Shown piece by piece: positions 2 through 63,834 of a DNA stretch of 64,000 nucleotides (its first letter is position 1; each line of letters starts with the position of its first letter). The notes under the pieces were generated by a model that was not told the DNA's origin, made no database searches, and worked only from the letters and a program-made list of their open reading frames with translations. Both the position numbers and the translations under genes were made by a program. The DNA comes from a virus: the IMG/VR virus record IMGVR_UViG_3300035698_007355, positions 1-64,000 of that record. One strand, given 5' to 3'.

Positions 2-124
2 GATAGTAGACATTTTGATACCATTAAGTCTGTAAAGTTGTCTAATATTAAAGAAGACGTTTGGGATATTACAGTGTATGATGACACACATTGTTTTCAA
101 TGTGATTATGTTATAACTGGAAAC
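2..124 (+). other. C-terminal end of intein 1 in the ribonucleotide reductase
   Basis: The first 41 codons do not resemble reductase. They end in a typical intein C-terminal block (VYDDTHCF, then VITGN) directly before the catalytic cysteine of the extein (nt 125-127). The splice residue is Asn and the +1 residue is the radical-forming Cys itself. The penultimate residue is Gly rather than the usual His. The rest of this intein, including any endonuclease domain, is outside the window. Confidence 0.85.
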
Positions 125-2023
125 TGTCTCGAACAAACTTTAGAACCATATGAATTGTGCTGTGTAACAGGAGATACTAGAATACAAACGAGAAATGGAA
201 TTCCTAAAATTGAAGATACTCTTGGAAAAGAAGTAGAAATATGGAACGGAGACAATTGGTCAAAAGTAAAACCATTTCATACTGGAATGAGACCAATATA
301 TAGAGTAGAATTAAGTGATGGAAGTCATTTAGATGTAACCAGTAACCATGAATGGTCTGTTAAAAAACCAACAGAAAGAACATTTAAAAAGAAAACAACT
401 ATGGAATTAGAACCTGGTATGTATCTTCCAGAATTTGAATTGAAATTAGATAACAATGGTATAGATGAATTAAATGCTTATTCGATAGGATGGTTCACTG
501 GAGATGGTTATATGGATAAGAATAGACCTTTAGTAGTCGTTCAACAACCAGAGTATGAAAAAGTATTGCCAGTACTTAAAGGAATACAATATAAAGAACA
601 ACATCCTTGGAATTATAAGAAACCATTTAGAAGAGTTTCTATGGTTGGTATAGTTAGTGAAAAGTTAGGAAAAGAACTTAGAAATTATGATATTGGTTTA
701 CCAGAAGAAATATTTAAATATAATAGAGAAAGTATTAAGGATTTCTTTGGTGGTTGGATAGATGCGGATGGTCATTTAGGTAGACAAGAAAATACGGATA
801 GTTATAGATTGTTTGGTTCAGAAAAAAAACTTAGAGACGCACAATTGCTTATGAGAAAAATTGGAATTAATCATTCTACTCTATCATTGATGTCTCCAAA
901 AGGATTTAAAACAAATAAAGGAATTAGAAATCACGACCTATATTGTTTATTAATACCTAGTTACGAATCTCAATTCATAAATACCGAATTAAAAGTTGCT
1001 GAAAGATTTGGAAGTAGATATAGAAGAAACAACGCACATAAACAAAGTGAAATGATAGATTCTGCTAGAAAACAAAAAATAGTTAGAGTGTTAATAACAC
1101 CAAGAATGGAAGAAACATATTGTTTTGAAGAACCAAAAAAACATATGGGCGTATTTGGAAACGTATTAACTTATCAATGTTTAGTTGAGACTTATCCAAG
1201 TAAACACGAATCATTAGAAGAATGGCAAGAAACATTGAAGTATGCATATTTATATGCTAAAACAATAACTCTTATGTCAACTCATAATTCCTTAACTAAT
1301 GCGGTGATGTTACGTAATAAGCGTATCGGATGCAGTATTAGTGGAATAACACAAGCATTTACTAAGTTCGGTCGCAGGGACTTTCTAGATGCTTGTGAAG
1401 TTGGCTACGATAAGATACAAAATTGGGATAAAGTATATTCAGATTGGTTATGTGTGCCTCGTAGTATTAAAACTACAAGTATTAAACCATCAGGAACTGT
1501 TAGTCTATTAGGCGGAGTTACTCCTGGAATACATTATCCTATAAGTGAATATTATATTAGAAACGTTAGATTTCAAGAAGGTAGTCCATTGCTTGTTAAA
1601 TTAAAAGACGCTGGTTACAAGATTGAAAAAGATAAATATTCCTTACATACGTTTGTTGTGAGTTTCCCTGTCAAGGAAGAATACTTTGATAGAGGAATAA
1701 ATGATGTGACTATGTGGGAACAACTTGAAAACACTGCACAAGTTCAAAAGTCTTGGGCAGATAATCAAGTAAGTGTTACTATTAGTTTCGATGAAACTGA
1801 AGGTAAACAAATTGTAAAAGCATTGGAATTGTATGAGACTCGATTAAAGGGTGTATCTTTCTTACCAAAGAGAGACCATGGTTATAAACAAGCACCATAT
1901 ATTCCAATAACAAAAGAACAGTATGAAAAAGAAAGTGCTAAAGTAACAACATTGAAATTAAAAGAAGACGTTCACGACCAAACAGAAAAGTTCTGTGATG
2001 GAACTAGTTGTGAAATTAAATAA
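2..2023 (+). CDS. nrdJ: Adenosylcobalamin-dependent ribonucleotide reductase (class II), 5' partial, with inteins
   Basis: This is the C-terminal part of a class II ribonucleotide reductase, which makes deoxynucleotides using adenosylcobalamin. The frame is open from the left window edge, so the N-terminal part lies outside. The exteins resemble the monomeric Lactobacillus-type enzyme: a Cys-Leu-Glu followed eleven residues later by Cys (nt 125-160) matches the C408/E410/C419 active-site loop, then comes the block RIGCSISGI, the KPSGTVSLLGG loop near nt 1487, and a C-terminal redox pair CDGTSC (nt 1993-2010). Two inteins interrupt it, one ending at nt 124 and one at nt 161-1177. The gene heads a plus-strand run of small genes. 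Viral reductases supply dNTPs for replication. The family is clear; the substrate level (NTP rather than NDP) is inferred from family resemblance. Confidence 0.93.
   Translation, partial: DSRHFDTIKSVKLSNIKEDVWDITVYDDTHCFQCDYVITGNCLEQTLEPYELCCVTGDTRIQTRNGIPKIEDTLGKEVEIWNGDNWSKVKPFHTGMRPIYRVELSDGSHLDVTSNHEWSVKKPTERTFKKKTTMELEPGMYLPEFELKLDNNGIDELNAYSIGWFTGDGYMDKNRPLVVVQQPEYEKVLPVLKGIQYKEQHPWNYKKPFRRVSMVGIVSEKLGKELRNYDIGLPEEIFKYNRESIKDFFGGWIDADGHLGRQENTDSYRLFGSEKKLRDAQLLMRKIGINHSTLSLMSPKGFKTNKGIRNHDLYCLLIPSYESQFINTELKVAERFGSRYRRNNAHKQSEMIDSARKQKIVRVLITPRMEETYCFEEPKKHMGVFGNVLTYQCLVETYPSKHESLEEWQETLKYAYLYAKTITLMSTHNSLTNAVMLRNKRIGCSISGITQAFTKFGRRDFLDACEVGYDKIQNWDKVYSDWLCVPRSIKTTSIKPSGTVSLLGGVTPGIHYPISEYYIRNVRFQEGSPLLVKLKDAGYKIEKDKYSLHTFVVSFPVKEEYFDRGINDVTMWEQLENTAQVQKSWADNQVSVTISFDETEGKQIVKALELYETRLKGVSFLPKRDHGYKQAPYIPITKEQYEKESAKVTTLKLKEDVHDQTEKFCDGTSCEIK
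161..1177 (+). other. Intein 2 in the ribonucleotide reductase, with LAGLIDADG endonuclease
   Basis: This is a 339-residue in-frame insertion that begins with Cys (CVTGDTRIQT, splicing block A), has a block B TSNHEW near residue 60, and carries two dodecapeptide endonuclease motifs (GWFTGDGYMD near nt 490 and GGWIDADGHLG near nt 750). It ends in VLTYQ before a +1 Cys that resumes the extein at CLVETYP. The last two residues are Tyr-Gln instead of His-Asn, a non-canonical but known type of splice end. It sits right after the C419-equivalent cysteine, so it should have to splice out for activity. The acidic residues of both dodecapeptides are present, suggesting the homing endonuclease could be active. 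Confidence 0.93.
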
Positions 2024-39786: not shown

Positions 39787-39900
39787 ATGAAAGAAAAATA
39801 CGTATTTCACGGACACTGTTGGGATAAAGATGGCGACTATGGAGTATATGTTGATAAAAACGGAAAGAGAGTTATAGTAAGAGTAGGTGATGAAAAATGA
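39787..39900 (+). CDS. Small protein, 37 aa, first gene of rightward operon
   Basis: This 37-residue ORF begins at the predicted transcription start (leaderless). It encodes KEKYVFHGHCWDKDGDYGVYVDK, a beta-hairpin-like sequence, and overlaps the next gene by ATGA. Function unknown. Confidence 0.6.
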   Translation: MKEKYVFHGHCWDKDGDYGVYVDKNGKRVIVRVGDEK

Positions 39901-40250
39901 ACGGTATACAAGTCGATTATGAACTAAATCCAGGAATGAGTAGCAGATTCAATCAAAAGATGTTTGGACGTATTTCAACTGGTAAAAAAGGTATACACGG
40001 CAAATCATATTATATTCCAGGAGTATTAGATGATATTCCACATTATAGAATTTTTGAAGGCCGTGTATTTGTGAGTACAGCAAAAAAATTAGATTTTGAC
40101 CATGTTATTACATATTGTAAGAAATTTAATGTTTCAAGTGTTTCAAAAACAAATGAAGATATTTTTATGAAAACAGGAAAAGAGCGATGGGCATTCCACG
40201 CAGTAGAGAAGGGGTTTAAAATTGACTGGAAAAAAAGCTGGGATAGGTAG
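39897..40250 (+). CDS. Protein of unknown function, 117 aa
   Basis: This 117-residue protein is coupled to the previous gene by an ATGA overlap. It has basic, aromatic-rich sequence (SYYIPGVLDDIPHYRIFEGRVFVS) and a C-terminal basic end (FKIDWKKSWDR). It precedes the putative small terminase, so a packaging or DNA-binding role is possible. Not recognised. Confidence 0.6.
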   Translation: MNGIQVDYELNPGMSSRFNQKMFGRISTGKKGIHGKSYYIPGVLDDIPHYRIFEGRVFVSTAKKLDFDHVITYCKKFNVSSVSKTNEDIFMKTGKERWAFHAVEKGFKIDWKKSWDR

Positions 40251-42433: not shown

Positions 42434-44497
42434 ATGGAGAATGTTATAATTACTGGTGTGGGTCAAGATGGTTATTATTTAAGTATTAAATTACTTGAGA
42501 AAGGTTATAAAGTTATTGGTATTGACCAATGGCAACATAAAGGTTATAATGATAACTACAAAGAATTAATGGAACATAAGAATTTCAAATTAATAGAAGG
42601 AAGTATTACTGATAGATATTTAATGAAACGAATTATAAAAGAATATCAACCTAAATATTTTTTTAATACAGCAGCTATTAGTCATGTAGCAGTATCATTT
42701 GATATTCCAGAATTAACTTTCGATACAAATACTATAGCACCTTTAAACATATTAGAAGAATTGAGACATAATAGTCCTCATACTAGTTTTCTTCAATGTT
42801 CTACAAGTGAACAATATGGAGATTTTGAAGAAACTCCTCAATCAGAAGAAACTAAAATGATGCCTAATAGTCCTTATGCGATTGCTAAAGCAGCTACTTT
42901 CTTTATGGTTAAACTTTATAGAAAATATGGATTAAAAACATATAATACAATATGCTTTAATCACGAATCAATACCAAAAGAATCATCTATAACATTAAAA
43001 CATAATAATAGATTACAAATAATACCAATTTGTGATTTATTTTATAAGCGCGGAGATAGATTTAGAGGATTTAATAAAAAATATATTGGGTCACAAGTAT
43101 GGGACGGTGATAAATGGACTAAAATAATTGATGGTACTTGTTATCAAAAGAAAAATAAACCTATGAAACTTATTCAAACCAGAGATGCTTGTTATGAGTC
43201 TACACTTGAACATAAAACATTTTTAAATGATAATTCAGAAATAAATACTGAAGATGTTAAAAAAGGCGATGTGGTATATGAAACATTTGACCCAATTATA
43301 AAAGAATATGAAACTATAGATAAAGATTTAGCATACGCTATTGGATTTATAGTAGGCGATGGATATGTTTCTAAATCTGGTTATATAAGATTAACTGGAT
43401 GTGATAAAAAAGAAATAACAAAAATTGCGAATATTATCAAAAATAAATTTGGATGGTCTTATAGAACTTATAATTCCGGACCAGGAAATTGGGAAAATTG
43501 TGTAAATGATGTATATCAAATCGATTTTAATAATGATGTAAATTTTGGATTATGGTTACGAAATTCAATATATTCAAAAAATACAAATAAAAAAATTGTT
43601 CCAGAATACATATTAAATGGAAATACCGATATTAAGTTAGGATTTTTTAAAGGGTATTATTTAGCAGATGGAAGAAAAACTGGTAATGAAACATATGAAT
43701 TTAAAGGATTTACTACAAATTCTCAAGCCCTATGTATGGGGTTAAATCACATTTGTAAATTAGTATTAAATCAAATACCAAAAACTAAATGTGTTATAAA
43801 AGGAGATAAAAGATATTATTATACACAATTAAGAAATACTAATACAAACCTAGGGAAAGGCGCTATTAAAAAACTAAATGAAGTAATATCTATAAAAAAT
43901 ACTAAAAATCCAGATAATTGGTTTTTTGATATTCAAACAGAATCAAAAGCATTTGTAACTGGACCAAATACTTTTAAAGTTCATAACAGTGAAATTAGAC
44001 CTGATAATTTTGTTACAAGAAAAATTACAAAGACTCTAGCTGAAATGATGGTTGGTAAAGCAGATAAACTAACTTTAGGAAATATGGATGCAAAAAGAGA
44101 TTGGGGATATGCTCCAGACTTTATCGATGGTATGATTACTATTATGGAGTCAGACGAGCCAGATGATTACGTTTTAGCTACAGGCGAGACACATACTGTT
44201 AGAGAATTTGTAGAAGCAGCTATTAAAGCACTTGGTCTAGATATTGTTTGGGAAGGAACTGGCGTTAATGAGAAGGGCTCGATTTTAGCAAGAGACCAAA
44301 ACGGAAATCCTATAATAATCAAGAAAGATGCAGTAGTTGTAAACAAAGATTTTTATAGACCAGCAGAAGTAAATGTCTTATTAGGAGACCCTACTAAGAT
44401 AAAAGAAAAATTAGGTTGGGAACCAACAACTAAATTTACAGAACTAGTTGCTAAAATGGTTAAGAATGACTTATTATTATGTGAGGAACAAAAATGA
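42434..44497 (+). CDS. GDP-mannose 4,6-dehydratase-like enzyme with intein
   Basis: This 687-residue precursor is a short-chain dehydrogenase of the GDP-mannose 4,6-dehydratase type, interrupted by a 340-residue intein. The host protein shows TGVGQDGYYL (residues 7-16), CSTSEQYG (122-129), the catalytic pair Tyr148/Lys152 in SPYAIAKAA and the substrate loop FNHES-EIRPDNFVTRKI across the splice junction, a hallmark of the GMD family. The enzyme would make GDP-4-keto-6-deoxymannose. The C-terminal segment with RDQNGNPIIIKKDAVVVNKDFYRPAEVNVLLGDP is GMD-like. It is part of a sugar-nucleotide cluster. Confidence 0.88.
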   Translation: MENVIITGVGQDGYYLSIKLLEKGYKVIGIDQWQHKGYNDNYKELMEHKNFKLIEGSITDRYLMKRIIKEYQPKYFFNTAAISHVAVSFDIPELTFDTNTIAPLNILEELRHNSPHTSFLQCSTSEQYGDFEETPQSEETKMMPNSPYAIAKAATFFMVKLYRKYGLKTYNTICFNHESIPKESSITLKHNNRLQIIPICDLFYKRGDRFRGFNKKYIGSQVWDGDKWTKIIDGTCYQKKNKPMKLIQTRDACYESTLEHKTFLNDNSEINTEDVKKGDVVYETFDPIIKEYETIDKDLAYAIGFIVGDGYVSKSGYIRLTGCDKKEITKIANIIKNKFGWSYRTYNSGPGNWENCVNDVYQIDFNNDVNFGLWLRNSIYSKNTNKKIVPEYILNGNTDIKLGFFKGYYLADGRKTGNETYEFKGFTTNSQALCMGLNHICKLVLNQIPKTKCVIKGDKRYYYTQLRNTNTNLGKGAIKKLNEVISIKNTKNPDNWFFDIQTESKAFVTGPNTFKVHNSEIRPDNFVTRKITKTLAEMMVGKADKLTLGNMDAKRDWGYAPDFIDGMITIMESDEPDDYVLATGETHTVREFVEAAIKALGLDIVWEGTGVNEKGSILARDQNGNPIIIKKDAVVVNKDFYRPAEVNVLLGDPTKIKEKLGWEPTTKFTELVAKMVKNDLLLCEEQK
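42968..43987 (+). other. Intein in the GDP-mannose dehydratase, LAGLIDADG type
   Basis: This 340-residue insertion (precursor residues 179-518) starts with Ser, just after FNHE, and ends FKVHN before a +1 Ser that resumes EIRPDNF. The endonuclease motifs are AYAIGFIVGDGYV (about 300-312) and LGFFKGYYLADGR (about 402-414), and both acidic residues are kept. Ser at position 1 is used instead of Cys. The insertion sits in the conserved substrate-binding loop, so splicing is required for activity. Confidence 0.92.
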
Positions 44498-45522
44498 ATA
44501 AATTAAAAATTGGATTTGCAGACAACCTCTATGGAACCCCAAAAGGCCATAGTTATGTTGTCAGAGATATGGTTAAAATATTTAAAGATGAAGGACATGA
44601 AACTCATATGTACAGAATAGGAGACAATCCTATAGATGTAGAATTTGATATCCCAGACACTATAAAATCTTTTACAGGTAGAAATTTACCAAAAGATGAA
44701 TTTATAGCTTGGATTAAAGAAAAAAAACTTGATTATTGTGTATTTATGGAATATCAACAATGGTGGAATGAAGATTATGATAAACTTCAAGTATGTAAAG
44801 ACCTTGGAGTTAAAACAGCAGGATTTTTAGTATGGGAAAAACTAGATTGGGATAAATTAGAGCATTATAAATTATATACTAAAATATTATGTCCTACAGG
44901 ATTTCAAACTAGATTATTAAGAGGAAAAGGGCTTATGAACGCAGTACATACTCCTTGGGGAGTATTTAAAGATGAAATAGATAAAGTATTTATGCCTGAA
45001 CGAGAAGATGATAACGTAGTATTTTATCATTGTGCAGGTAGTGGTGGAGTAGAAAATAGAAAAAATACAGATGCTGTAGTAGAAGCATATAATAAAATAA
45101 AAGATGGAAATACAAGATTACAAATGACACACTTAGGTAAAAAAGTATTTAATAGAAAAGAAATAATATCTTTTATGAAATACTCAGATGTATTAATAAA
45201 TACTGCTAAATGGGACACTATAGGATTAAATTCATTAGAAGCTAATATGTGTGGTAGTCCAGCAATAGTAGTTGATATGGACCCCATGAATGAATTGGTT
45301 AAGAATAATACTAATGGATTTACAGTCCCTGGAAAACTAGGAGAAAGTAGAATAGTTACTTGCCCTATTTATAATGTTGACGTTGATGAACTAGCTAAAA
45401 AAATGGAAATATGTAAAAATAAGATAGTTTTAGATACTCTTAAAAGTAGTTCAAGAAAATTTGCAGAAATTAACTTTGATTGGGATATTAATAAAGAATT
45501 TCTTTTAAAACATTTTAAATGA
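44494..45522 (+). CDS. GT-B glycosyltransferase
   Basis: This 342-residue protein resembles family 1/4 glycosyltransferases: an N-terminal KIGFADNLYGTPKGHSYVVRDMVKIF (loop after first strand), central NRKNTDAVVEAYNKIK, and a donor-site DTIGLNSLEANMCGSPAIVVD (about 232-252). It overlaps the dehydratase stop by four bases, suggesting it uses the sugar nucleotide made there. Acceptor unknown. Confidence 0.8.
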   Translation: MNKLKIGFADNLYGTPKGHSYVVRDMVKIFKDEGHETHMYRIGDNPIDVEFDIPDTIKSFTGRNLPKDEFIAWIKEKKLDYCVFMEYQQWWNEDYDKLQVCKDLGVKTAGFLVWEKLDWDKLEHYKLYTKILCPTGFQTRLLRGKGLMNAVHTPWGVFKDEIDKVFMPEREDDNVVFYHCAGSGGVENRKNTDAVVEAYNKIKDGNTRLQMTHLGKKVFNRKEIISFMKYSDVLINTAKWDTIGLNSLEANMCGSPAIVVDMDPMNELVKNNTNGFTVPGKLGESRIVTCPIYNVDVDELAKKMEICKNKIVLDTLKSSSRKFAEINFDWDINKEFLLKHFK

Positions 45523-45531
45523 GGTGTAATA

Positions 45532-45735
45532 ATGAAAAATAGTTGTCCTTTTAAGGACGAATTAATTGAGATAATACAAATGAAGACTGCTCCAATATGT
45601 TTTCATTGTGGTAATCCTTATATTAGGGATTTAATACATTGTGGGGCTTACCATAATACGTGGATGCCTAATTGTAAATGTCTCAGTAAAACAACAATAA
45701 GAATAGTAACTGGAAATGGATTTAGAATCGAATAG
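45532..45735 (+). CDS. Small zinc-binding protein
   Basis: This 67-residue protein has CFHCGNPY and later a His/Cys-rich part (HCGAYHNTW, NCKC), which suggests a bound zinc. It lies between the glycosyltransferase and aminotransferase-fold genes. Role unknown. Confidence 0.55.
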   Translation: MKNSCPFKDELIEIIQMKTAPICFHCGNPYIRDLIHCGAYHNTWMPNCKCLSKTTIRIVTGNGFRIE

Positions 45736-45743
45736 GTGAAAAA

Positions 45744-46823
45744 ATGATAAGAATAGGAGATTTCATTCCTGAGAAGAAACATATAGACGCAGTTCTAGAA
45801 GTTATTAAATCAGGACGTATAACAGAAGGCTCAAAAGTTAAAGAACTAGAGAAAGTTATGGCTAAATACCTAGATGTAAAACACGCAATACTTACAACAA
45901 ATGGAACAGTAGCTTTACAATTAGTAGCAACATATCTAAGACATAGAGACAAAGATAATGTTAATACAGCTATTCCAGCTATGACATTTCCAGCAACTAT
46001 AAATGCATTTGCTGTTGGTGGATTTCCAGTAGCTCTAGTAGATATTAAAGAAGATTTACAAATAGATATTGGTAAAATCACAGATGAAATGAAACCAAAT
46101 ATTGATATTATAGTACCTGTACATCTTATGGGGTATACAGCAGATATGGATAAAATTATGGCTGACGCTGAGAAATATGGTTGGACAGTTGTTGAAGACG
46201 CTTGTGAAGCGTTTGGGTCAGAATATAAAGGTAAAAAAGTAGGAACTATAGGACACTTTGGTTGTTTTAGTTTTTATGTATCACATAACATAACAGCAGG
46301 AGAACTTGGTATGGTTGTAACAAACGATGACGAAGCTGCTAAAATTATGAGAAGTATGAAGAATCACGGAAGAACAGGAGATTCAATGAAATTCCTACAC
46401 GGATATATTGGGTCTAATTATAAAACAACAGAATTCACAGCAGCTATAGGATTAGCTAATATGGAGAATGTTAATGATATTATATCTGAGAGAAAAGCAA
46501 ATTGTCAATACTTTTTAGATAATATCAAGAATGATAATTTAATATTATTTCCAGTACCAGAAGGGTTTAGTCCATTAGGATATCCTATAAAATGCTTAAC
46601 CCCTAAATATAGAACAAAGATTTGTAAAAAATTAAATGATAATAATATTGAAACAAGAGACATCTTTCCTTGTCTAGCTAACCAGGACGCGTATAGAGTG
46701 CATTTTAGAGACTCTAATCTCCCAGTAGCAGATACACTAGAAAAAACTGTTTTCTATATAGGATGTCACCAATTTTTGTCTGAGAGCGATAAGAAGAAAA
46801 TAATAGAGGTATTATCAGAATGA
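45744..46823 (+). CDS. DegT-family PLP enzyme with His in place of the lysine: probable sugar 3-dehydratase
   Basis: This 359-residue protein has the DegT/DnrJ/EryC1 fold: GRITEGSKVKELE (24-36), NGTVALQL (53-60), EDACEAFGSEYKGKKVGT (151-168) and the cofactor motif CFSFYVSHNITAGELGMVVT (174-193). In aminotransferases of the family this motif carries the Schiff-base Lys; here residue 181 is His (SHN). His at this place defines GDP-4-keto-6-deoxymannose 3-dehydratase (ColD) and the E1 3-dehydrases, which make 3-deoxysugars. Together with the upstream GDP-mannose dehydratase this predicts a GDP-3,6-dideoxyhexose route. No ColC-like reductase/epimerase is seen in the window. Confidence 0.8.
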   Translation: MIRIGDFIPEKKHIDAVLEVIKSGRITEGSKVKELEKVMAKYLDVKHAILTTNGTVALQLVATYLRHRDKDNVNTAIPAMTFPATINAFAVGGFPVALVDIKEDLQIDIGKITDEMKPNIDIIVPVHLMGYTADMDKIMADAEKYGWTVVEDACEAFGSEYKGKKVGTIGHFGCFSFYVSHNITAGELGMVVTNDDEAAKIMRSMKNHGRTGDSMKFLHGYIGSNYKTTEFTAAIGLANMENVNDIISERKANCQYFLDNIKNDNLILFPVPEGFSPLGYPIKCLTPKYRTKICKKLNDNNIETRDIFPCLANQDAYRVHFRDSNLPVADTLEKTVFYIGCHQFLSESDKKKIIEVLSE

Positions 46824-47896
46824 AATTATTATATATAGCATTAGACTCATTAAATCATTCAATAAGGATTTGTAACGAACTAGTTAAGAAAGGATATGAA
46901 ATAACCTTAGTTGCTATGGATGAAGATTATTATGATAATGAAAATATTCCAATTCCAGATAAAAAAATTAAATTAATTCAAGATACTTTAAAAAACATTG
47001 AAAATCCTGAAACATTTCCATATGATAAAGTTAAAGAAAAATACGATATGATATTTGGGTCAACAATGAGATGTGCTCCAATATGTTCAGTATTAAAAGG
47101 TAAAATGAAAATTCCTTGGTATAATATGGTATTAGATATACCAACTCATTTACTTATGAGATATAAAGCACGTAGAGAATTATGGGAGACAATATATTTA
47201 CCATCATTAGACTATGCAGATAAAATATTACTTAATACTAATATTGCTATGAGTGAATATAAACGAATAACTGGTAATAGAGCTAAACCTTGTGATGTAG
47301 TAACTTATCCAACACACTTACCAAGTAAGTTCTTTATGGAAGGACTTGGAAAAAGAGGTGACTATGTTATATCAGTTGGAAGATTAGTTGCTGAAAAAAA
47401 CTTTATTATTATTCCAATAGCATTATCAATGATTAAAGGAATTAATAAATATGTAGCGATAGGACCTGACAAAGGCCAATTACAAAAAATAAAAGATATG
47501 TGCAAGCAATATGGAGTAGAATTCGAACATTATACAAATGTATCAGGAGAAAAAAAGATGGAACTCATAAGTAAAAGCGCAATGATGATTTATCCACAAC
47601 ATACTGAATATATTGGTGGATTACCACCTTATGAAGGAATGTTTTGTGGAAAACCAGTAATTTGTTCAATGTATAAAATCTTAATAGATTTATATGGACC
47701 AAATGCATTATATTTTACACCAGGGGAAGTTTTAGAGCTTGCAAAGAATATTTCATTTGTTATGAGTTGTAAAGATGAACTTTATGAAAGGTTAGGACAA
47801 AATGCAGCAGAATTTGCTGAAATTGAAGCTGGATACGAGAAATTTGCAGATGGTCTGCATAATTTTTTAGAAAATAAAAAAGAGGAAGAAAAATGA
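46820..47896 (+). CDS. Family-4-like glycosyltransferase
   Basis: This 358-residue protein has a GT-B layout: N-terminal YIALDSLNHSIRICNELVKKGYEITLV, a hinge YVISVGRLVAEKNFIIIPIA (about 174-193), and donor motif YIGGLPPYEGMFCGKPVICS (about 253-272). SVGRLVAEKN is the classic start of the family 4 C-terminal domain. It overlaps both neighbours by ATGA, so it is strictly coupled with the dehydratase operon. Confidence 0.85.
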   Translation: MKLLYIALDSLNHSIRICNELVKKGYEITLVAMDEDYYDNENIPIPDKKIKLIQDTLKNIENPETFPYDKVKEKYDMIFGSTMRCAPICSVLKGKMKIPWYNMVLDIPTHLLMRYKARRELWETIYLPSLDYADKILLNTNIAMSEYKRITGNRAKPCDVVTYPTHLPSKFFMEGLGKRGDYVISVGRLVAEKNFIIIPIALSMIKGINKYVAIGPDKGQLQKIKDMCKQYGVEFEHYTNVSGEKKMELISKSAMMIYPQHTEYIGGLPPYEGMFCGKPVICSMYKILIDLYGPNALYFTPGEVLELAKNISFVMSCKDELYERLGQNAAEFAEIEAGYEKFADGLHNFLENKKEEEK

Positions 47897-48051
47897 ATAG
47901 TAATACAACAGATATTAAATATACATTTACATATGTACCACCATTCCGTTATTATGAAGAATGTGATTGTGATATATGTCCGTGTTGTGGTAAACGAAGA
48001 CGAAGAAGTCTAGATAAGCCTTGGATAGTAACTTGCGGAGGACAACAATGA
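47893..48051 (+). CDS. Cys-rich small protein, 52 aa
   Basis: This 52-residue ORF overlaps both neighbours by four bases. It has CDCDICPCCGKRRRR, a zinc knuckle followed by a basic run, and a lone C-terminal Cys. Possibly a nucleic-acid- or protein-binding zinc peptide. Confidence 0.6.
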   Translation: MNSNTTDIKYTFTYVPPFRYYEECDCDICPCCGKRRRRSLDKPWIVTCGGQQ

Positions 48052-49049
48052 GTGATATTTTATTAGCTTGTCCTATGGAGGATGGACAATCAGGAACATT
48101 TATACAAGAAGCTCTATTAGAGTTAGATTATAGAGTAGCAGTATTTGATTGGAGAAAATTCGGAAATACATATGGGCAAGAAGGATTAAATAAAGAATTT
48201 ATAGATGCTCACAAAAAACTTAAACCAGATTTAACAATTATAATTAAGGGTGGCGGGATAGAATCAACTACAATAGATAAAATTAAAAAATTCCATAAAG
48301 GAAAAATTGTTGGATGGATATTTGATGTTACTTTAGGAGGAATTTACATAAAAGATATACCACGATATGTAGATTTTTGTAAATCATTAGATATTTTTTT
48401 CACAATAGACGCAGAAGCAGTTCCAGAGTTAAATAAACTCGGAATTAATTGTAAATGGCTTCCACAAGGGTTTTTTGAACCACTATATAGAGAACAAGTG
48501 TTTAATTATGTTCAAAAAAAGAGATTTGGGTCAGATATAGCATTTATTGGTTCAGTTGGGTCATTTCATCCAGAAAGAGAGAAATTTTTAAAAAGATTAC
48601 ACCAAGAAGGGTTTTATTTCAAAATTTATGGCGAAGTTTTATATCCAGAAGGTAAAGAACCTGATTGGGTAGTAGAACATCATACAGGATTTGCTGTAAA
48701 GAATGATATACACTCAGTTGTAGTTGGGTCAAGTAAAATTATGATAGGATTAGATGGTTGGCCTCATAGAGACAAGTCGTATTCACTTAGACTTTATAAA
48801 ACATTAGGAGCAGGCGGATTTTATTTAATGAATCATACAAAAAATGTTGAAGAAATATTTACACCAGGAGTTCACCTTGATACTTTCAAAGATGAAGATG
48901 AAATGGTTGAAAAAATCATAGAATATTTAAATGATGATGATTTGAGAGAAAAAATAGCAAAGGATGGGCAAGAAGAGGTATTAAAAAATCACACACAGGA
49001 GGTTGTAATGAAAAAACTATTAAAGGGAGTGTTAGAATTAACGGAATAA
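48048..49049 (+). CDS. CgeB-like glycosyltransferase
   Basis: This 333-residue protein begins at ATG 48048 (ATGA overlap, GGAGGA upstream), not at the in-frame ATG 48021. It has a GT-B form: KPDLTIIIKGGG (about 55-66), GWIFDVT, TIDAEAVPELNKLGINCKWLPQGF (about 125-148), IAFIGSVGSFHPERE (about 166-180) and YSLRLYKTLGAGGFYLMN (about 235-252). This is the pattern of CgeB/spore-maturation-type glycosyltransferases often found in viral and surface-glycan clusters. Confidence 0.75.
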   Translation: MSDILLACPMEDGQSGTFIQEALLELDYRVAVFDWRKFGNTYGQEGLNKEFIDAHKKLKPDLTIIIKGGGIESTTIDKIKKFHKGKIVGWIFDVTLGGIYIKDIPRYVDFCKSLDIFFTIDAEAVPELNKLGINCKWLPQGFFEPLYREQVFNYVQKKRFGSDIAFIGSVGSFHPEREKFLKRLHQEGFYFKIYGEVLYPEGKEPDWVVEHHTGFAVKNDIHSVVVGSSKIMIGLDGWPHRDKSYSLRLYKTLGAGGFYLMNHTKNVEEIFTPGVHLDTFKDEDEMVEKIIEYLNDDDLREKIAKDGQEEVLKNHTQEVVMKKLLKGVLELTE

Positions 49050-52862: not shown

Positions 52863-52936
52863 GCCCTTGTAGCATAATTGGCTAGTGCAGTTGGTTTGTA
52901 ACCAACAGGTTGTCGGTTCGACTCCGACCAAGGGCT
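52863..52936 (+). tRNA. tRNA-Thr (TGT)
   Basis: Acceptor halves GCCCTTG and CAAGGGC pair fully. The anticodon stem TTGGT/ACCAA carries the loop TTTGTAA region with anticodon TGT, and the T arm is TCGG-TTCGACT-CCGA. No CCA is encoded. A partial copy of its 5' end (TGCCCTGTAGCAT) lies just upstream at about 52849. Confidence 0.88.
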
Positions 52937-52945
52937 TTTAGTATT

Positions 52946-53020
52946 GGGGCTGTAGCATAATCCGGTTAATGTGCCTGGCTGTTGACCAGAGGATTACAGG
53001 TTCAAATCCTGTCGGCTCCG
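52946..53020 (+). tRNA. tRNA-Asn (GTT)
   Basis: The acceptor stem GGGGCTG/CGGCTCC is closed with two G-T pairs; the loop CTGTTGA has anticodon GTT; the T arm is ACAGG-TTCAAAT-CCTGT. It is nine bases after the tRNA-Thr. No CCA is encoded. Confidence 0.88.
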
Positions 53021-53026
53021 CTTTTA

Positions 53027-53100
53027 TGCGTCATTGGTGTTAACGGTAGCATCTCTGGCTTCCAACCAGATGGAGTGAGTTCAAATCTTGCATGGCGCAT
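53027..53100 (+). tRNA. tRNA-Gly (TCC)
   Basis: The acceptor stem TGCGTCA/TGGCGCA starts with a T-A pair, which is unusual for tRNA; the anticodon stem TCTGG/CCAGA holds the loop CTTCCAA with anticodon TCC. T arm has TTCAAAT. It lies six bases after the tRNA-Asn. Confidence 0.85.
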
Positions 53101-59501: not shown

Positions 59502-59702
59502 ATGAAATTATTGACCAAGAAAATTATAGAACAATTACCAATAACTTCACTTATAAGGTATATTTCATTAATCCAAAATTATATGTATGAGGTATTTCCT
59601 ACTATGTGTGATATGGATAAACAAAAAGAATGGACACGATTAATGAAACATAGAGCATTTGTGGCTACAGCATTGGTTAAACAAACAGAGGTAGAAAAAT
59701 GA
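59502..59702 (+). CDS. Small helical protein, first of the right-end operon
   Basis: This 66-residue helical protein (TKKIIEQLPITSLIRYISLIQNYMYEVFPT) has GGAGG upstream and overlaps the next gene by ATGA. It lacks the W-K-x-R-Y tail of its neighbours. Not recognised. Confidence 0.6.
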   Translation: MKLLTKKIIEQLPITSLIRYISLIQNYMYEVFPTMCDMDKQKEWTRLMKHRAFVATALVKQTEVEK

Positions 59703-59914
59703 GCAAATTCAAGGTTGGTGATAGAGTAGAAAGGACTTTAAATCCAGTCAACGAAAATATACAAGTAGGCGATATATCAGAAATAACAGAAATACACGAT
59801 AACAAAATATCTTTAAAAGATTTTACCCCCCTTCAGGACTGTTGTTATGTTAGAGATAATTTTGAACTGGTTAAATACACAACTTGGAAGGAACGATACG
59901 AGACCAAAGAATGA
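59699..59914 (+). CDS. W-K-x-R-Y family protein 1
   Basis: This 71-residue protein opens SKFKVGDRVER, has GDISEITEIHDNKISLKDF and ends YTTWKERYETKE. The KxGDxV start, small beta-barrel pattern and W-K-E-R-Y tail define a family of at least eleven paralogs in this operon. The fold resembles SH3/KOW-type barrels. Function unknown. It overlaps its neighbours by ATGA. Confidence 0.7.
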   Translation: MSKFKVGDRVERTLNPVNENIQVGDISEITEIHDNKISLKDFTPLQDCCYVRDNFELVKYTTWKERYETKE

Positions 59915-60114
59915 CATTCAAAAAAGGAGATAAGGTAGAAGTTATCGGAGAATATAATGGTTATAATGCAGGCACTATCTTAACTGTTGAAAATACTATC
60001 CAAAATGTTTGTTGGTTCGAAGAACCTAACACAAAAGGTTCTACAGATTGGGGAATTCGTAACAGTAATTTAAAATTACCATTTAAAACCTGGAGAAAGA
60101 GGTATAATAAATGA
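59911..60114 (+). CDS. W-K-x-R-Y family protein 2
   Basis: This 67-residue protein opens TFKKGDKVEVIGEYNGYNAGTI and ends FKTWRKRYNK. ATG 59911 (ATGA overlap) is preferred to 59884. It has the KKGDKV barrel start and the family tail. Confidence 0.7.
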   Translation: MTFKKGDKVEVIGEYNGYNAGTILTVENTIQNVCWFEEPNTKGSTDWGIRNSNLKLPFKTWRKRYNK

Positions 60115-60350
60115 AATTTAAAGTAGGAGATAAGGTATTAATCATTTCTAATGCAGACGATGGAATATGGAACCAATATATAGGTACTATACACATTATA
60201 ACAGCCGTTATAAATAACACCATTTCAGACCGTAAATATTATTTACCAATAAATCCATATTCAGAAGAAGAAGAAAGTGTATGGTCAGAAAAAGAACTGA
60301 AATTGGTAAAAAATCTTACTTGGAAAGAACGATATGAGGCGACTATATAA
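60111..60350 (+). CDS. W-K-x-R-Y family protein 3
   Basis: This 79-residue protein opens KFKVGDKVLII, has GTIHIITAVINNT and VWSEKELKLV, and ends LTWKERYEATI. It overlaps the previous gene by ATGA and shares its last base with the next start. WSEKELKLV looks like the last strand of an SH3-like barrel. Confidence 0.72.
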   Translation: MKFKVGDKVLIISNADDGIWNQYIGTIHIITAVINNTISDRKYYLPINPYSEEEESVWSEKELKLVKNLTWKERYEATI

Positions 60351-60607
60351 TGGAACAAAAAAACATTAAGATAGGTAAGGCTTACAAGATTGTTGGAAAC
60401 AATGGTGGATGTTCTAGAACTAACCGTTGTAAAGATTGTATTCCTTTTATAAAAGGTATAGTTGTTACAAGCCTTTTGGATGAGGATGACGAACCTAATA
60501 GAACAGTTTCAGGAGATTCTTTAAATGGTTTAAGGCATTGTGGTTTTGACCCAAGAGATTTAATTCTGATACCAACTAATTGGAGGGAGAGATATGCTAA
60601 CAAATGA
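60350..60607 (+). CDS. W-K-x-R-Y family protein 4, Cys-containing variant
   Basis: This 85-residue variant begins KIGKAYKIVGNNGGCS and includes CKDCIP in place of the first hairpin, and ends IPTNWRERYANK. The Cys cluster may bind zinc. The ATG of the next gene lies inside its R-Y-A codons. Confidence 0.68.
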   Translation: MEQKNIKIGKAYKIVGNNGGCSRTNRCKDCIPFIKGIVVTSLLDEDDEPNRTVSGDSLNGLRHCGFDPRDLILIPTNWRERYANK

Positions 60608-60677
60608 GGATAAATTACACAATATAATGATGGGTAGTTTGAAATCCTTTGGAAAAGAATATTGGAGGAAAAAATGA
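60594..60677 (+). CDS. Small peptide, 27 aa
   Basis: This 27-residue ORF starts inside the R-Y tail codons of family protein 4, which supply its GGAGG site. It is followed at an overlap by another mini-ORF. Tentative. Confidence 0.4.
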   Translation: MLTNEDKLHNIMMGSLKSFGKEYWRKK

Positions 60678-60754
60678 AAAAAGAAAAAGAATGGATTGTG
60701 AAAAATGAGCTTGAGGAAAGCGATGATATAGCAAGTGTGGAGATAATAAAATGA
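60674..60754 (+). CDS. Small acidic peptide, 26 aa
   Basis: This 26-residue ORF has GGAGGAAAAA upstream, an ATGA overlap on both sides and a Lys/Glu sequence (KKEKEWIVKNELEES). Tentative small gene. Confidence 0.4.
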   Translation: MKKEKEWIVKNELEESDDIASVEIIK

Positions 60755-60873
60755 ACCTAAAATTTTTACTACCAAATAATCCTTCCGATTGGATATGTAT
60801 TGGTTTTGTAATAGGAGTAATATTTTTCCTATTTATGACTATGCTAACAATAGGTATGATGGAGATATTATAA
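60751..60873 (+). CDS. Small membrane protein, 40 aa
   Basis: This 40-residue ORF overlaps the previous stop and has a hydrophobic helix WICIGFVIGVIFFLFMTMLT. GTGGAG precedes it. Single-pass membrane protein. Confidence 0.55.
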   Translation: MNLKFLLPNNPSDWICIGFVIGVIFFLFMTMLTIGMMEIL

Positions 60874-60977
60874 TGAAATGTTTCAAATGCTCGGCTACAT
60901 TAACGCCTAATCAACAGGACGAATACAATACCACAATATACACTTGTAATTGTGGCGCTATAAATTCAGTGAGGTAA
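60873..60977 (+). CDS. Zinc-ribbon peptide, 34 aa
   Basis: This 34-residue ORF encodes CFKCSATLTPNQQ and YTCNCGAINS, a minimal CxxC...CxC zinc ribbon; it shares one base with the previous stop and has GGAG upstream. Confidence 0.55.
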   Translation: MKCFKCSATLTPNQQDEYNTTIYTCNCGAINSVR

Positions 60978-60983
60978 ATAAAA

Positions 60984-61244
60984 ATGGGACTATTTGATGA
61001 TTATTTAAAAAAGGAAAAATCTTTACAATATCATAAATACCAATTAAAATTATGGTTGGAAGAATGGTATGAATTTGTTGATGGTAATGGTGATAGTGGT
61101 TATACACTACTTAAACATATATCTTCCAAGTTAAATAAAATTGAGAAACAGGTTGATATTCATATCAAAGCGGTCAATCGTTTGGACAACAAATCTTTTC
61201 AGACCTTTGAAGACGGATATGTTCCTAGTGGAACTTTAATGTGA
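60984..61244 (+). CDS. Small helical protein, 86 aa
   Basis: This 86-residue helical protein (LFDDYLKKEKSLQYHKYQLKL, SSKLNKIEKQVDIHIKAVNR) has GAGGT upstream. It lacks the family tail. Unknown. Confidence 0.6.
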   Translation: MGLFDDYLKKEKSLQYHKYQLKLWLEEWYEFVDGNGDSGYTLLKHISSKLNKIEKQVDIHIKAVNRLDNKSFQTFEDGYVPSGTLM

Positions 61245-61248
61245 AAAT

Positions 61249-61347
61249 ATGATGATACCAATACTATCCTACATTAGAAGAAACTTTTGGGGTATAGTTT
61301 TTGTAATATTTATGATAGGAATATCGATAATAGGAGGATTACAATGA
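61249..61347 (+). CDS. Small membrane protein, 32 aa
   Basis: This 32-residue ORF has a hydrophobic helix FWGIVFVIFMIGISIIGG and overlaps the next gene by four bases. GTGAAA upstream is a weak ribosome site. Confidence 0.5.
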   Translation: MMIPILSYIRRNFWGIVFVIFMIGISIIGGLQ

Positions 61348-61616
61348 AATTAAATAAAGGATGTTATAAAATAGATACAATTGACCAATCTACCAATGCA
61401 AAAATACAGGCGTCGCTACTTGAAAAAGGTTGTAGTTGGGGTAGGTCAGAAAATACGATACAATATACAGAAAAAAGGTATTTATTTTTAGATGATGGAT
61501 GCTTTACATATGCCGAACATAAAGATTATTTTGATAACCATACTTATAAGGAAGTAAGTGTTAAAATTATTCTAGGTAAATTCAGTTGGAAAGAAAACTA
61601 TGAGGCTAAAAAATGA
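61344..61616 (+). CDS. W-K-x-R-Y family protein 5 (N variant)
   Basis: This 90-residue protein starts at ATG 61344, with AGGAGG seven bases upstream (an ATG at 61287 lies in the membrane peptide gene). It opens KLNKGCYKIDTIDQS and ends LGKFSWKENYEAKK, the family tail with Asn for Arg. The barrel part is more diverged than in the other members. Confidence 0.65.
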   Translation: MKLNKGCYKIDTIDQSTNAKIQASLLEKGCSWGRSENTIQYTEKRYLFLDDGCFTYAEHKDYFDNHTYKEVSVKIILGKFSWKENYEAKK

Positions 61617-61684
61617 ATTTAGCGGATGAATTACTAACGGAAGAGGAATTGTCCCGTATAGTAGAGGAAGACAATGAAATTTAA
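61613..61684 (+). CDS. Short acidic peptide, 23 aa
   Basis: This 23-residue acidic ORF overlaps both neighbours and uses the GAGG inside the tail codons of protein 5 as its ribosome site. Tentative; it may only serve translational coupling. Confidence 0.35.
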   Translation: MNLADELLTEEELSRIVEEDNEI

Positions 61685-61925
61685 AAAAGGACAAAAAGTT
61701 CTAATCAGAAAAGACCTGGAAGCAAGTAAACAATATGATAATTGTACGGTTACAATTGCAATGAAACAATATAAAGGACAAATTGCTATAATAACAAGAA
61801 CTAAAAAATATGGGATATTTGAAAGGTATGAATTAAATATTGATGGAGGACGATGGTCCTGGGCAAGTGAAATGTTAATACCAACAAATATAAGTTGGAG
61901 AGAAAGATATAAGATTATGCCATAA
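61674..61925 (+). CDS. W-K-x-R-Y family protein 6
   Basis: This 83-residue protein opens KFKKGQKVLIRKDLEASK, has QIAIITRTKKYGIFERYEL and ends NISWRERYKIMP. The next gene is 67 bases away, so here the tail is not needed for a downstream start, supporting a role for the peptide itself. Confidence 0.7.
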   Translation: MKFKKGQKVLIRKDLEASKQYDNCTVTIAMKQYKGQIAIITRTKKYGIFERYELNIDGGRWSWASEMLIPTNISWRERYKIMP

Positions 61926-61946
61926 AGCGAACCACAACGCCAAAAC

Positions 61947-61970
61947 GGTAGCCCTGGCGACAGGGCTGCC
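61947..61970 (+). promoter_or_regulatory. Ten-base-pair hairpin with GCGA tetraloop
   Basis: GGTAGCCCTG-GCGA-CAGGGCTGCC is a stable stem capped by a GNRA-type loop in the only sizeable gap of the operon. It could be an RNA processing or stabilising element; no T-tract follows, so termination is unlikely. Confidence 0.65.
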
Positions 61971-61992
61971 ATTATAATTATGAGGTAAACAA

Positions 61993-62193
61993 ATGATTTG
62001 GAAAGTAGGAGATAGCGTAATATCTAATTTAGGAATAGATAAAGAAAAACATTTAACCATTACAGAAATATCATACCGTGAAGGTAATCCAACATTATGG
62101 TTCAGTGATGGTGGATGTACTAGAGTAGAAGAAATTATGGAAGGAGATTTAAGACATTCATCGTGGAAAGAACGATATGGAGGTAAAAAATGA
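61993..62193 (+). CDS. W-K-x-R-Y family protein 7
   Basis: This 66-residue protein opens IWKVGDSVISNLGID, has LTITEISYREGNPTLWFSDG and ends SSWKERYGGKK. GAGGTAAAC precedes the ATG. The tail codons include GGAGG for the next gene. Confidence 0.7.
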   Translation: MIWKVGDSVISNLGIDKEKHLTITEISYREGNPTLWFSDGGCTRVEEIMEGDLRHSSWKERYGGKK

Positions 62194-62336
62194 AAAAATT
62201 AAGGACACATAATACAACTTGTTTACCACCACATTTAAGAACAAAAAAGAAACCAATCAGTATTGCGGTAAGTAGAACTAAATCCAATAAAGATAAATTA
62301 GCATTTATGAAGAAATTTGGCGAGGTAATAAGATGA
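62190..62336 (+). CDS. Small basic protein, 48 aa
   Basis: This 48-residue Lys/Arg-rich ORF (KKLRTHNTTCLPPHLRTKKKP) overlaps both neighbours by ATGA. It precedes the primase-like gene; nucleic acid binding is plausible. Confidence 0.55.
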   Translation: MKKLRTHNTTCLPPHLRTKKKPISIAVSRTKSNKDKLAFMKKFGEVIR

Positions 62337-62869
62337 GACAAACCACAATAACGGCGGCTCAACTCAAGAAGTTCGTAGGTAGAAAAAATACCTTTGCTAT
62401 ACAAACAAATAAAGGCTCCTATGTACCAGTAAGACGAGATATAACAACCAAAGACTTACAGGACCATTTAAAAGGTGATAAAACATTAGGCTCATATGTA
62501 ATTCAAGAAGATGGACTAATTTCGTTTGCCTGTATAGATATTGATACAGAACCAGGAAATGATTTAGAACCTTACAAAAGATTAGCCTATATAGTGTATG
62601 ACCTATTTGTGGACTTTCAAGCAGTCCTTGAATTCTCAGGTAGAAGAGGATACCACATATGGTTATTTCCAGAAAAACCAGAACATCCAAGATTCCTTAG
62701 GGAATTAATAAAATCACGATTAAAAACATACGGTATTAGAAACATAGAAATATATCCTAAACAAGATACCATCAATGAATTAGAGAAAAAGTTAGGCAAC
62801 TTAATTAAATTACCTTGTGGAAAGCACAAAAAAGGTGGATGGTCCGAAATTATGAGGTGGAGAAAGTGA
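62333..62869 (+). CDS. Archaeo-eukaryotic primase-like protein
   Basis: This 178-residue protein carries the AEP motifs in order: FACIDIDTEPG with Asp69/Asp71, LEFSGRRGYHIWLF (about 100-113), NIEIYPKQ (137-144) and GNLIKLPCGKHKKGG (155-169). These are the catalytic acid pair, the SGRRGYH motif and nucleotide-binding motif of small primase-polymerases and TOTE-type primases. At 178 residues it is near the minimal catalytic core and lacks a zinc or helicase domain. It would synthesise primers for viral DNA. It is coupled to its neighbours. Confidence 0.85.
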   Translation: MRQTTITAAQLKKFVGRKNTFAIQTNKGSYVPVRRDITTKDLQDHLKGDKTLGSYVIQEDGLISFACIDIDTEPGNDLEPYKRLAYIVYDLFVDFQAVLEFSGRRGYHIWLFPEKPEHPRFLRELIKSRLKTYGIRNIEIYPKQDTINELEKKLGNLIKLPCGKHKKGGWSEIMRWRK

Positions 62870-63084
62870 ACCCCAAAGACTTTAAGATTGGACAAACAGT
62901 TAAACGTACCGGGGATGAATATAACGGTATGGTAATAGGAGATATTGATGTTATAACGGATGTTGGTAATAATATCGAATTAAAGAAATTTGGACCAGGA
63001 CATTCAAAACGTAGCCTTAGTGTAATAAATTTCAGTTGGAAAGGTAGATATGAGGTAAAAAATGAAATTCAAAGTTGGGGATAA
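62866..63084 (+). CDS. W-K-x-R-Y family protein 8
   Basis: This 72-residue protein starts with GTG at 62866 (GTGA overlap with the primase stop, GGTGGAG upstream). It opens NPKDFKIGQTVKRTGDEYNG, has GDIDVITDVGNNIELKKF and has the tail NFSWKGRYEVKNEIQSWG, extended by a few residues over the next start. Confidence 0.68.
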   Translation: MNPKDFKIGQTVKRTGDEYNGMVIGDIDVITDVGNNIELKKFGPGHSKRSLSVINFSWKGRYEVKNEIQSWG

Positions 63085-63283
63085 AGTAAAAGTGATAGAT
63101 GGAGATTTCCATAAAAATAATTCTCCAGAACTAAAGACTGGATATATAGGTATAATTACCGAAATTAAGGAAATATCAGCTATTTTTCCTGGAAATCATT
63201 GGATAGATATAGACGGATACGGTGGTATTATAGAAAGCCAATTAATGCTAGTATATACAAGTTGGAGGGATAGATATGAGTAA
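63062..63283 (+). CDS. W-K-x-R-Y family protein 9
   Basis: This 73-residue protein opens KFKVGDKVKVIDGDFH, has GYIGIITEIKEISAI and ends YTSWRDRYE exactly at the stop. The ATG of the next gene lies within its R-Y-E codons, with GGAGG eight bases before it. Confidence 0.75.
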   Translation: MKFKVGDKVKVIDGDFHKNNSPELKTGYIGIITEIKEISAIFPGNHWIDIDGYGGIIESQLMLVYTSWRDRYE

Positions 63284-63515
63284 GTTCAAAAAAGGAGACA
63301 AAGTAAGGTTCAAATCACCTGATAGCCGTAACGCTACCTATTTTTCATCAGGATTAAGAAACCTAGAAATAGTAGAAAGTCTTGGTATTAGTGAATATAG
63401 TGTTAGGGAAGCAGATAATTCCATATCTTGGTGTGTAGAGGAATATGAATTGGAGTTAGAAACCCCTAAATTTAAAAGTTGGAGGAAAAGATATGACCAC
63501 TTACAGACACAGTAA
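63276..63515 (+). CDS. W-K-x-R-Y family protein 10
   Basis: This 79-residue protein opens SKFKKGDKVRFKSPDSRN and ends FKSWRKRYDHLQTQ. Its start lies in the tail codons of protein 9, and it carries the next start in its own R-Y-D codons. Confidence 0.75.
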   Translation: MSKFKKGDKVRFKSPDSRNATYFSSGLRNLEIVESLGISEYSVREADNSISWCVEEYELELETPKFKSWRKRYDHLQTQ

Positions 63516-63834
63516 AGAACTAAAGGGTAACACTTTAGAACTAGGTGATACTTTAAAATTTACAAAAGGTGCAAATAAAGGGTCCTTTAAAGTTACAGCA
63601 ACCTTTTTAGATAATACAATATCCATTGGTAATAATCACGTACCTTTAGATATGATTGGTCTAACATCAGAAAGAGAAAGAAGGGACTTTTGCACTAAAA
63701 ATTATGGGTATAGTGCTGGTAAAGGAAGTTGGCCTATTTATAGTAATAATGATATGGACGCAATTACTAGAACGGTAATAGTTATATTTTTAATATTGGA
63801 AAAAGGATTTAGTTGGAGGTATAGATATGAATAA
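63493..63834 (+). CDS. W-K-x-R-Y family protein 11, longer variant
   Basis: This 113-residue protein has LELGDTLKFTKGANKGSFKVTATFLDN as the barrel core, an insertion of about 40 residues, and ends GFSWRYRYE at the stop. Its own start lies in protein 10's tail codons and it provides the next start at 63827. Confidence 0.72.
   Translation: MTTYRHSKELKGNTLELGDTLKFTKGANKGSFKVTATFLDNTISIGNNHVPLDMIGLTSERERRDFCTKNYGYSAGKGSWPIYSNNDMDAITRTVIVIFLILEKGFSWRYRYE

Follow-up and report, generated by a model that had tools for sequence, protein, structure and literature searches.

Why would a run of small genes in one virus encode proteins that end in the same short peptide? The question is raised by a window covering bases 1-64,000 of a virus record 96,731 bases long (IMGVR_UViG_3300035698_007355), in which an earlier note had listed eleven open reading frames (ORFs) sharing a W-[KR]-x-[RN]-Y C-terminal tail, approximately SWKERY and referred to herein as the tag. 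All eleven ORFs are present, one of them (62866) with a GTG start, and the tag, in the form [S/T/N]-W-[KR]-x-[RN]-Y, lies within the last 16 residues in 11/11. The K-[FV]-K-x-G-D-x-V start that had been ascribed to most of the set holds for about eight of the eleven. The primase-like gene said to be packed with the array is likewise there, as an archaeo-eukaryotic primase (AEP-TOTE) domain. ORFs are named below by their start coordinates.

59699..59914, + strand: tagged SH3-like ORF 1; tail TTWKERYETKE, tag codons 59885-59899
59911..60114, + strand: tagged SH3-like ORF 2; tail KTWRKRYNK, tag codons 60091-60105
60111..60350, + strand: tagged SH3-like ORF 3; tail LTWKERYEATI, tag codons 60321-60335
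60350..60607, + strand: tagged divergent SH3-like ORF 4, Cys-containing; tail TNWRERYANK, tag codons 60581-60595
61344..61616, + strand: tagged ORF 5, non-barrel body (phrog_17589); tail FSWKENYEAKK, tag codons 61587-61601
61674..61925, + strand: tagged SH3-like ORF 6 (phrog_7488); tail ISWRERYKIMP, tag codons 61896-61910
61993..62193, + strand: tagged SH3-like ORF 7; tail SSWKERYGGKK, tag codons 62164-62178
62333..62869, + strand: AEP-TOTE primase domain (E 7e-20), untagged, within the array
62866..63084, + strand: tagged SH3-like ORF 8, GTG start; tail FSWKGRYEVKNEIQSWG, tag codons 63037-63051
63062..63283, + strand: tagged SH3-like ORF 9; tail TSWRDRYE, tag codons 63263-63277
63276..63515, + strand: tagged SH3-like ORF 10; tail KSWRKRYDHLQTQ, tag codons 63480-63494
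63493..63834, + strand: tagged ORF 11, longer body, no barrel-profile match; tail FSWRYRYE, tag codons 63814-63828

In an alignment of twelve members the W and Y of the tag are invariant and the R is conserved in at least 90%. The whole record holds 18 copies of the motif versus 1.6 expected from shuffled proteins (maximum of 6 in 300 shuffles), counted on a simple non-overlapping gene set from which 61674 was left out by an overlapping antisense ORF; in a first scan, 12 C-terminal copies fell on the + strand and none on the - strand. A position profile was then built from the eleven window tails (leave-one-out scores 17.6-24.1). Fourteen ORFs of the record score at least 18 with this profile, 13 with the tag at the C-terminus and one at the N-terminus, all on the + strand, and below these the highest score is 12. 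In related-virus loci the best of 10,135 ORFs reached 17.2, with the match internal to the ORF, and of the twelve best background ORFs one was C-terminal, with a score of 13.8. Loosely matching ORF ends in 2.0 Mb of related loci numbered two, below the reversed control. The tag on the array proteins is real, strongly non-random and biologically unusual.

Exactly three ORFs besides the eleven score above 18, and weaker copies were also seen, so that a family size of eleven is an undercount, because the record extends beyond the window. The additional copies, in record coordinates, are:

69356-69658 (also listed from 69341), + strand: C-terminally tagged ORF, found by the tag profile
69684-69929 (listed as 69570), + strand: C-terminally tagged ORF, found by the tag profile
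64673-64981 (also listed from 64652), + strand: N-terminally tagged ORF (NWKERY), found by the tag profile
64458, + strand: weaker N-terminal copy MWKEHY on a barrel body without a C-terminal tag
70259-70618: weaker copy NWKETY; C-terminal variant NWKETYLRRRKE, a candidate tag behind a long acidic stretch
75246-75557: weaker copy DWKQYY; C-terminal variant DWKQYYGERR
84247: weaker copy WKERF

The N-terminal copy of 64458 has a profile score of 8.4, partly since two columns of the profile precede its start. A looser C-terminal variant, IDWKKSWDR, also occurs within the window at 39897-40250 and, together with NWKETYLRRRKE and DWKQYYGERR, suggests that the strict motif may not capture the whole tag family.

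The bodies to which the tag is attached are themselves ordinary, about ten of them being common phage SH3-like small barrels. Nine of the eleven window ORFs, including the divergent 60350, form one barrel family by profile; the bodies of 61344 and 63493 give no match to it. The barrel profile was built from the same nine ORFs, and its independent extra matches are only 64458 (E 1.8e-4) and 69570 (E 0.1). An AlphaFold model of 60111 (mean predicted local distance difference test score, pLDDT, 64.8) has six strands (residues 8-14, 20-26, 29-34, 37-48, 51-58 and 63-65), a coil and then a helix at residues 71-78 that starts exactly at the tag W. Foldseek searches with this model returned proteins of the phage SH3-like, Tudor and chromo-barrel kinds, no match reaching an E value below 0.001, and the modeling lends moderate support to a five- to six-stranded small barrel fold of the phage SH3-like kind. 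Small SH3-like phage proteins (phrog_7488, phrog_4317 and phrog_13152, and the T4-type Gp30.5) are of the same kind as the bodies by sequence or fold similarity. The closest link is between 61674 and phrog_7488 (E 1.7e-11), the other array proteins giving weak matches. No KOW or Pfam SH3 housekeeping family matched above its curated cut-off (best SH3_13, 16.7 bits versus 41; KOW, 12.3 versus 22.3).

Since these barrels are clearly one family, the tag could be a helix with a structural job, capping or completing the SH3-like (chromo-barrel-like) fold, its spread reflecting nothing but common descent. Among the nearest solved folds are MSL3 chromo-barrel domains, which align with the 60111 model over 77-79 columns, nearly its full length, as this explanation would lead one to expect. 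However, alignments to barrel homologs elsewhere end ahead of the tag: 61674 has its tag W at residue 75, and what aligns with the Enterococcus and Bacillus phage relatives found by tblastn (36-47% identity, E about 3e-3) is confined to residues 1-72. The tag is also present on bodies that fail the barrel profile, and there is at least one secure N-terminal copy, in 64673. We therefore regard a purely structural role as unlikely.

ORF 61344 falls in a different phage family (phrog_17589, E 1.1e-8), and its phage matches end by residue 74, ahead of the tag. Its single-sequence AlphaFold model, of low confidence (mean pLDDT 50.5), has mixed helix and strand, with a helix at residues 82-88 that again starts exactly at the tag W. 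In profile comparisons of the barrel alignment with 61344, 69356 and 63493, the tag and a few preceding residues align and nothing else does, which bears out the idea of a constant terminal tag joined to bodies that vary. Compared with 64673, the barrel alignment matches the N-terminal copy of the tag; "terminal" must thus be read as either end, although the tag is nearly always C-terminal as first described. One tag, several otherwise unlike bodies and one clear N-terminal case are securely established. The sharing of the tag by non-barrel bodies, along with its N-terminal copy, indicates at the level of sequence that it is a movable protein module, more than a part of the barrel or a ribosome-binding site.

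The last of these possibilities arises from the layout of the genes. At 63263, 63480 and 63814 the junctions read TGGAGGnnnAGATATGA, in which the W-R codons give GGAGG and the Y-E codons give the next ATG, so that the tag codons double as the ribosome-binding site and start of the following gene. On this basis an RNA element at the junctions, serving ribosome binding or translational coupling, might have produced the tag as a side effect. Against this, the purine-rich stretch falls in varying tag codons (W-R, K-R-Y or after Y) across junctions such as 60091, 60321, 62164 and 63037; the tag is retained at 60581 and 61896 without a nearby downstream start; and the 64673 copy sits just after its own start codon. 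Together these make an RNA-only account very improbable. The tag codons also vary synonymously (R as CGA, AGA or AGG; Y as TAT or TAC), which points to selection on the peptide, and conservation of the tag is at the protein level.

We found the array in this virus alone. "Unique" here means within the collections searched and at the spacings tested, and records near the window's own may fall outside them. Four scans of IMG/VR with two-tag DNA patterns at spacings of 159-282 gave 22 matches and no tag array: the first nine that were checked had tags out of frame, and the remainder had no two tagged ORFs, with one C-terminal single copy in one locus. A tag-ATG-tag pattern matched 19 times across 84,980 prokaryote genomes, and at none of these sites did ORFs end in the tag. 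Similar arrays in other genomes, which the earlier note had named as a possible support, were not found in either collection at the spacings tested. Each of 47 further virus records, TerL relatives with few exceptions, has 0-1 copies of the tag pattern versus 9 here, all on one strand. For the SH3-like phage relatives, alignments stop short of the tag, and no other searched record has a tagged tandem array.

The setting of the array bears on what the tag might do. Judged from its genes, this is a tailed virus, and its replication is of archaeal type. The record encodes head-tail proteins (portal, TerL, capsid and tape measure), a RadA-type recombinase for which haloarchaeal tailed viruses give the best phage matches, and replication proteins comprising a family B DNA polymerase (PolB) with an intein, an ORF resembling Hus1/PCNA and a match to the primase large subunit. 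Replication genes surround the tagged genes, and the head and tail genes are encoded on the other strand. TerL had no close relative in IMG/VR, the nearest being 30-34% identical, and a RadA scan of IMG/VR gave no match. In sampled genomes from the phyla of one Heimdallarchaeota and one Pacearchaeota genome, TerL reached 22-27% identity over the longer alignments and 248 kb around these matches held no tags; no host was found among them.

Several other features of the record were observed. Three genes bear inteins or LAGLIDADG domains, namely a ribonucleotide reductase (window 38-2023), the weakest case (LAGLIDADG E 0.0012), a GDP-mannose dehydratase (window 42434-44497) and the family B DNA polymerase (record 89148-92648). 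The dehydratase opens a run of sugar genes (window 42434-49049) with glycosyltransferase-like ORFs and, by eye, an aminotransferase-like ORF (45744-46823), possibly for decoration of the virion or DNA. Three tandem tRNA genes (Thr-TGT, Asn-GTT and Gly-TCC) lie at window 52863-53100. The reductase ORF begins at the start of the record (1-2023), an ORF runs off its end (94892-96731) and no direct terminal repeat was found in the record, which may therefore be an incomplete or permuted genome.

The explanation that we tentatively favor, and consider just short of probable, is that W-[KR]-x-R-Y serves as a transferable docking tag, bringing small proteins to one partner in the cell. Each protein would consist of a variable body and a short, probably helical peptide at one chain end; from sequence and the AlphaFold models, the tag looks like a short helix with an S/T/N N-cap followed by W-K/R-E-R-Y, which would put W and Y on the same face, separated by one turn. 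All tags would bind a single common partner inside the infected cell, thereby gathering many small proteins at one place, where their bodies could perform different jobs such as binding or blocking host factors, possibly defense proteins. That the helix is exposed, that there is a single partner, what it may be and that the bodies act as effectors are points that we infer. Docking at a hub within the cell is placed first because the genes lie among the replication genes, away from the head genes. Several points weigh against it. The two models behind the putative exposed helix, described above, are of low confidence; most tagged bodies are homologous barrels, and conservation is therefore perhaps partly due to common descent; the N-terminal and non-barrel evidence comes from a handful of proteins; and the scores of 64458, 70259, 75246 and 84247 are within the range of chance matches. 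A PCNA-interaction (PIP box) motif was rejected by inspection: the spacing fits, but the conserved Q and second aromatic are missing.

The same kind of peptide could instead act in the virion. As a capsid-cargo signal, the tag would bind the prohead scaffold or the inner capsid face, so that the small proteins enter the virion along with the genome and are ejected into the next cell to be infected, in the manner of T4 internal proteins. In T4 the internal-protein targeting sequence is N-terminal and leads to the scaffold core. Like the array proteins, which carry a conserved short terminal sequence on diverse bodies, T4-type internal proteins are small, highly diverse viral proteins that have only such a sequence in common, used for targeting (PMC3012670). 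The tagged proteins are all at most 119 residues (13.5 kDa), versus 13/31 untagged + strand neighbors that are larger, a size that suits passage through a tail. Encapsulin targeting peptides, too, are short and terminal on different proteins, C-terminal or, in ferredoxins, N-terminal (PMC8346489), as the tag can be here. These precedents differ from the array in other respects. The encapsulin peptide has another sequence, its consensus SDGSLGIGSLKRS (PMC8346489) bearing no resemblance to the tag by inspection, and its cargo is metabolic enzymes in a shell that is not a virion. Unlike in T4, the tag is mostly C-terminal and of another sequence. The location of the tagged genes, described above, also speaks against packaging, as does a median isoelectric point of 7.8, which is not strongly basic. 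No prohead protease was recognized beside the portal and capsid genes when the head genes were scanned, a missing match not amounting to absence. Packaging is accordingly an explanation that we doubt, while giving it some weight.

A further candidate partner is suggested by genes near the array, beyond the window:

record 65479-69344: candidate ubiquitin-like cassette, with a beta-grasp-like 128-aa ORF, a 546-aa ORF with HPHANSDGSPCLG (E2-like), a 343-aa ORF with JAMM-like HKHPGS..GDEDD and a ThiF/E1-like ORF

The tagged proteins could be adaptors or substrates of this cassette, the bodies selecting targets and the tag recruiting E1/E2-like enzymes, much as poxvirus ankyrin (Ank)/PRANC proteins recruit the host SCF. 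The ThiF/E1-like gene overlaps or directly precedes the tagged ORF 69341/69356, and it has family support (Pfam 1.7e-13; PRTRC ThiF 3.8e-8). The neighboring ORFs were assigned by inspection, and the E2-, JAB- and ubiquitin-like ORFs gave no significant family match; proximity alone links the cassette to the tag. The poxvirus proteins do resemble the array in being a large viral paralog set with variable bodies and a conserved C-terminal docking element, with 20 Ank/PRANC proteins in fowlpox and a PRANC of just 13 residues reported (PMC3185573). They have ankyrin bodies, an F-box-like tag and eukaryotic hosts, whereas the bodies here are SH3-like and of about 70 residues, with a tag of about 6-8 residues that is sometimes N-terminal; no ankyrin repeat or F-box-like domain was matched by Pfam in ten array proteins. 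On balance this reading seems quite improbable.

The earlier view that no system of this form has been described thus survives in part. Sets of viral proteins that have a targeting element in common are already known, T4 internal proteins among them, and the SH3-like bodies are common, while the tag itself is unseen elsewhere in the collections searched; a literature search for C-terminal motifs shared by phage proteins turned up nothing that fits. Taken further, the docking explanation would describe a virus-specific address code, evolved independently by this lineage, in which one docking helix at either chain end sends at least 14 small proteins of different folds, as an effector set, to one hub. 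We hold this fuller version as a possibility, somewhat short of probable. Whatever its role, the tag offers a clean example from nature of one short motif spread over different proteins in a single genome. If it is a docking label, it would flag effectors among otherwise unannotated genes, one peptide pull-down would expose the convergence point of a whole uncharacterized viral protein set, and the tag would provide a direct handle on the take-over of an archaeal-type cell.

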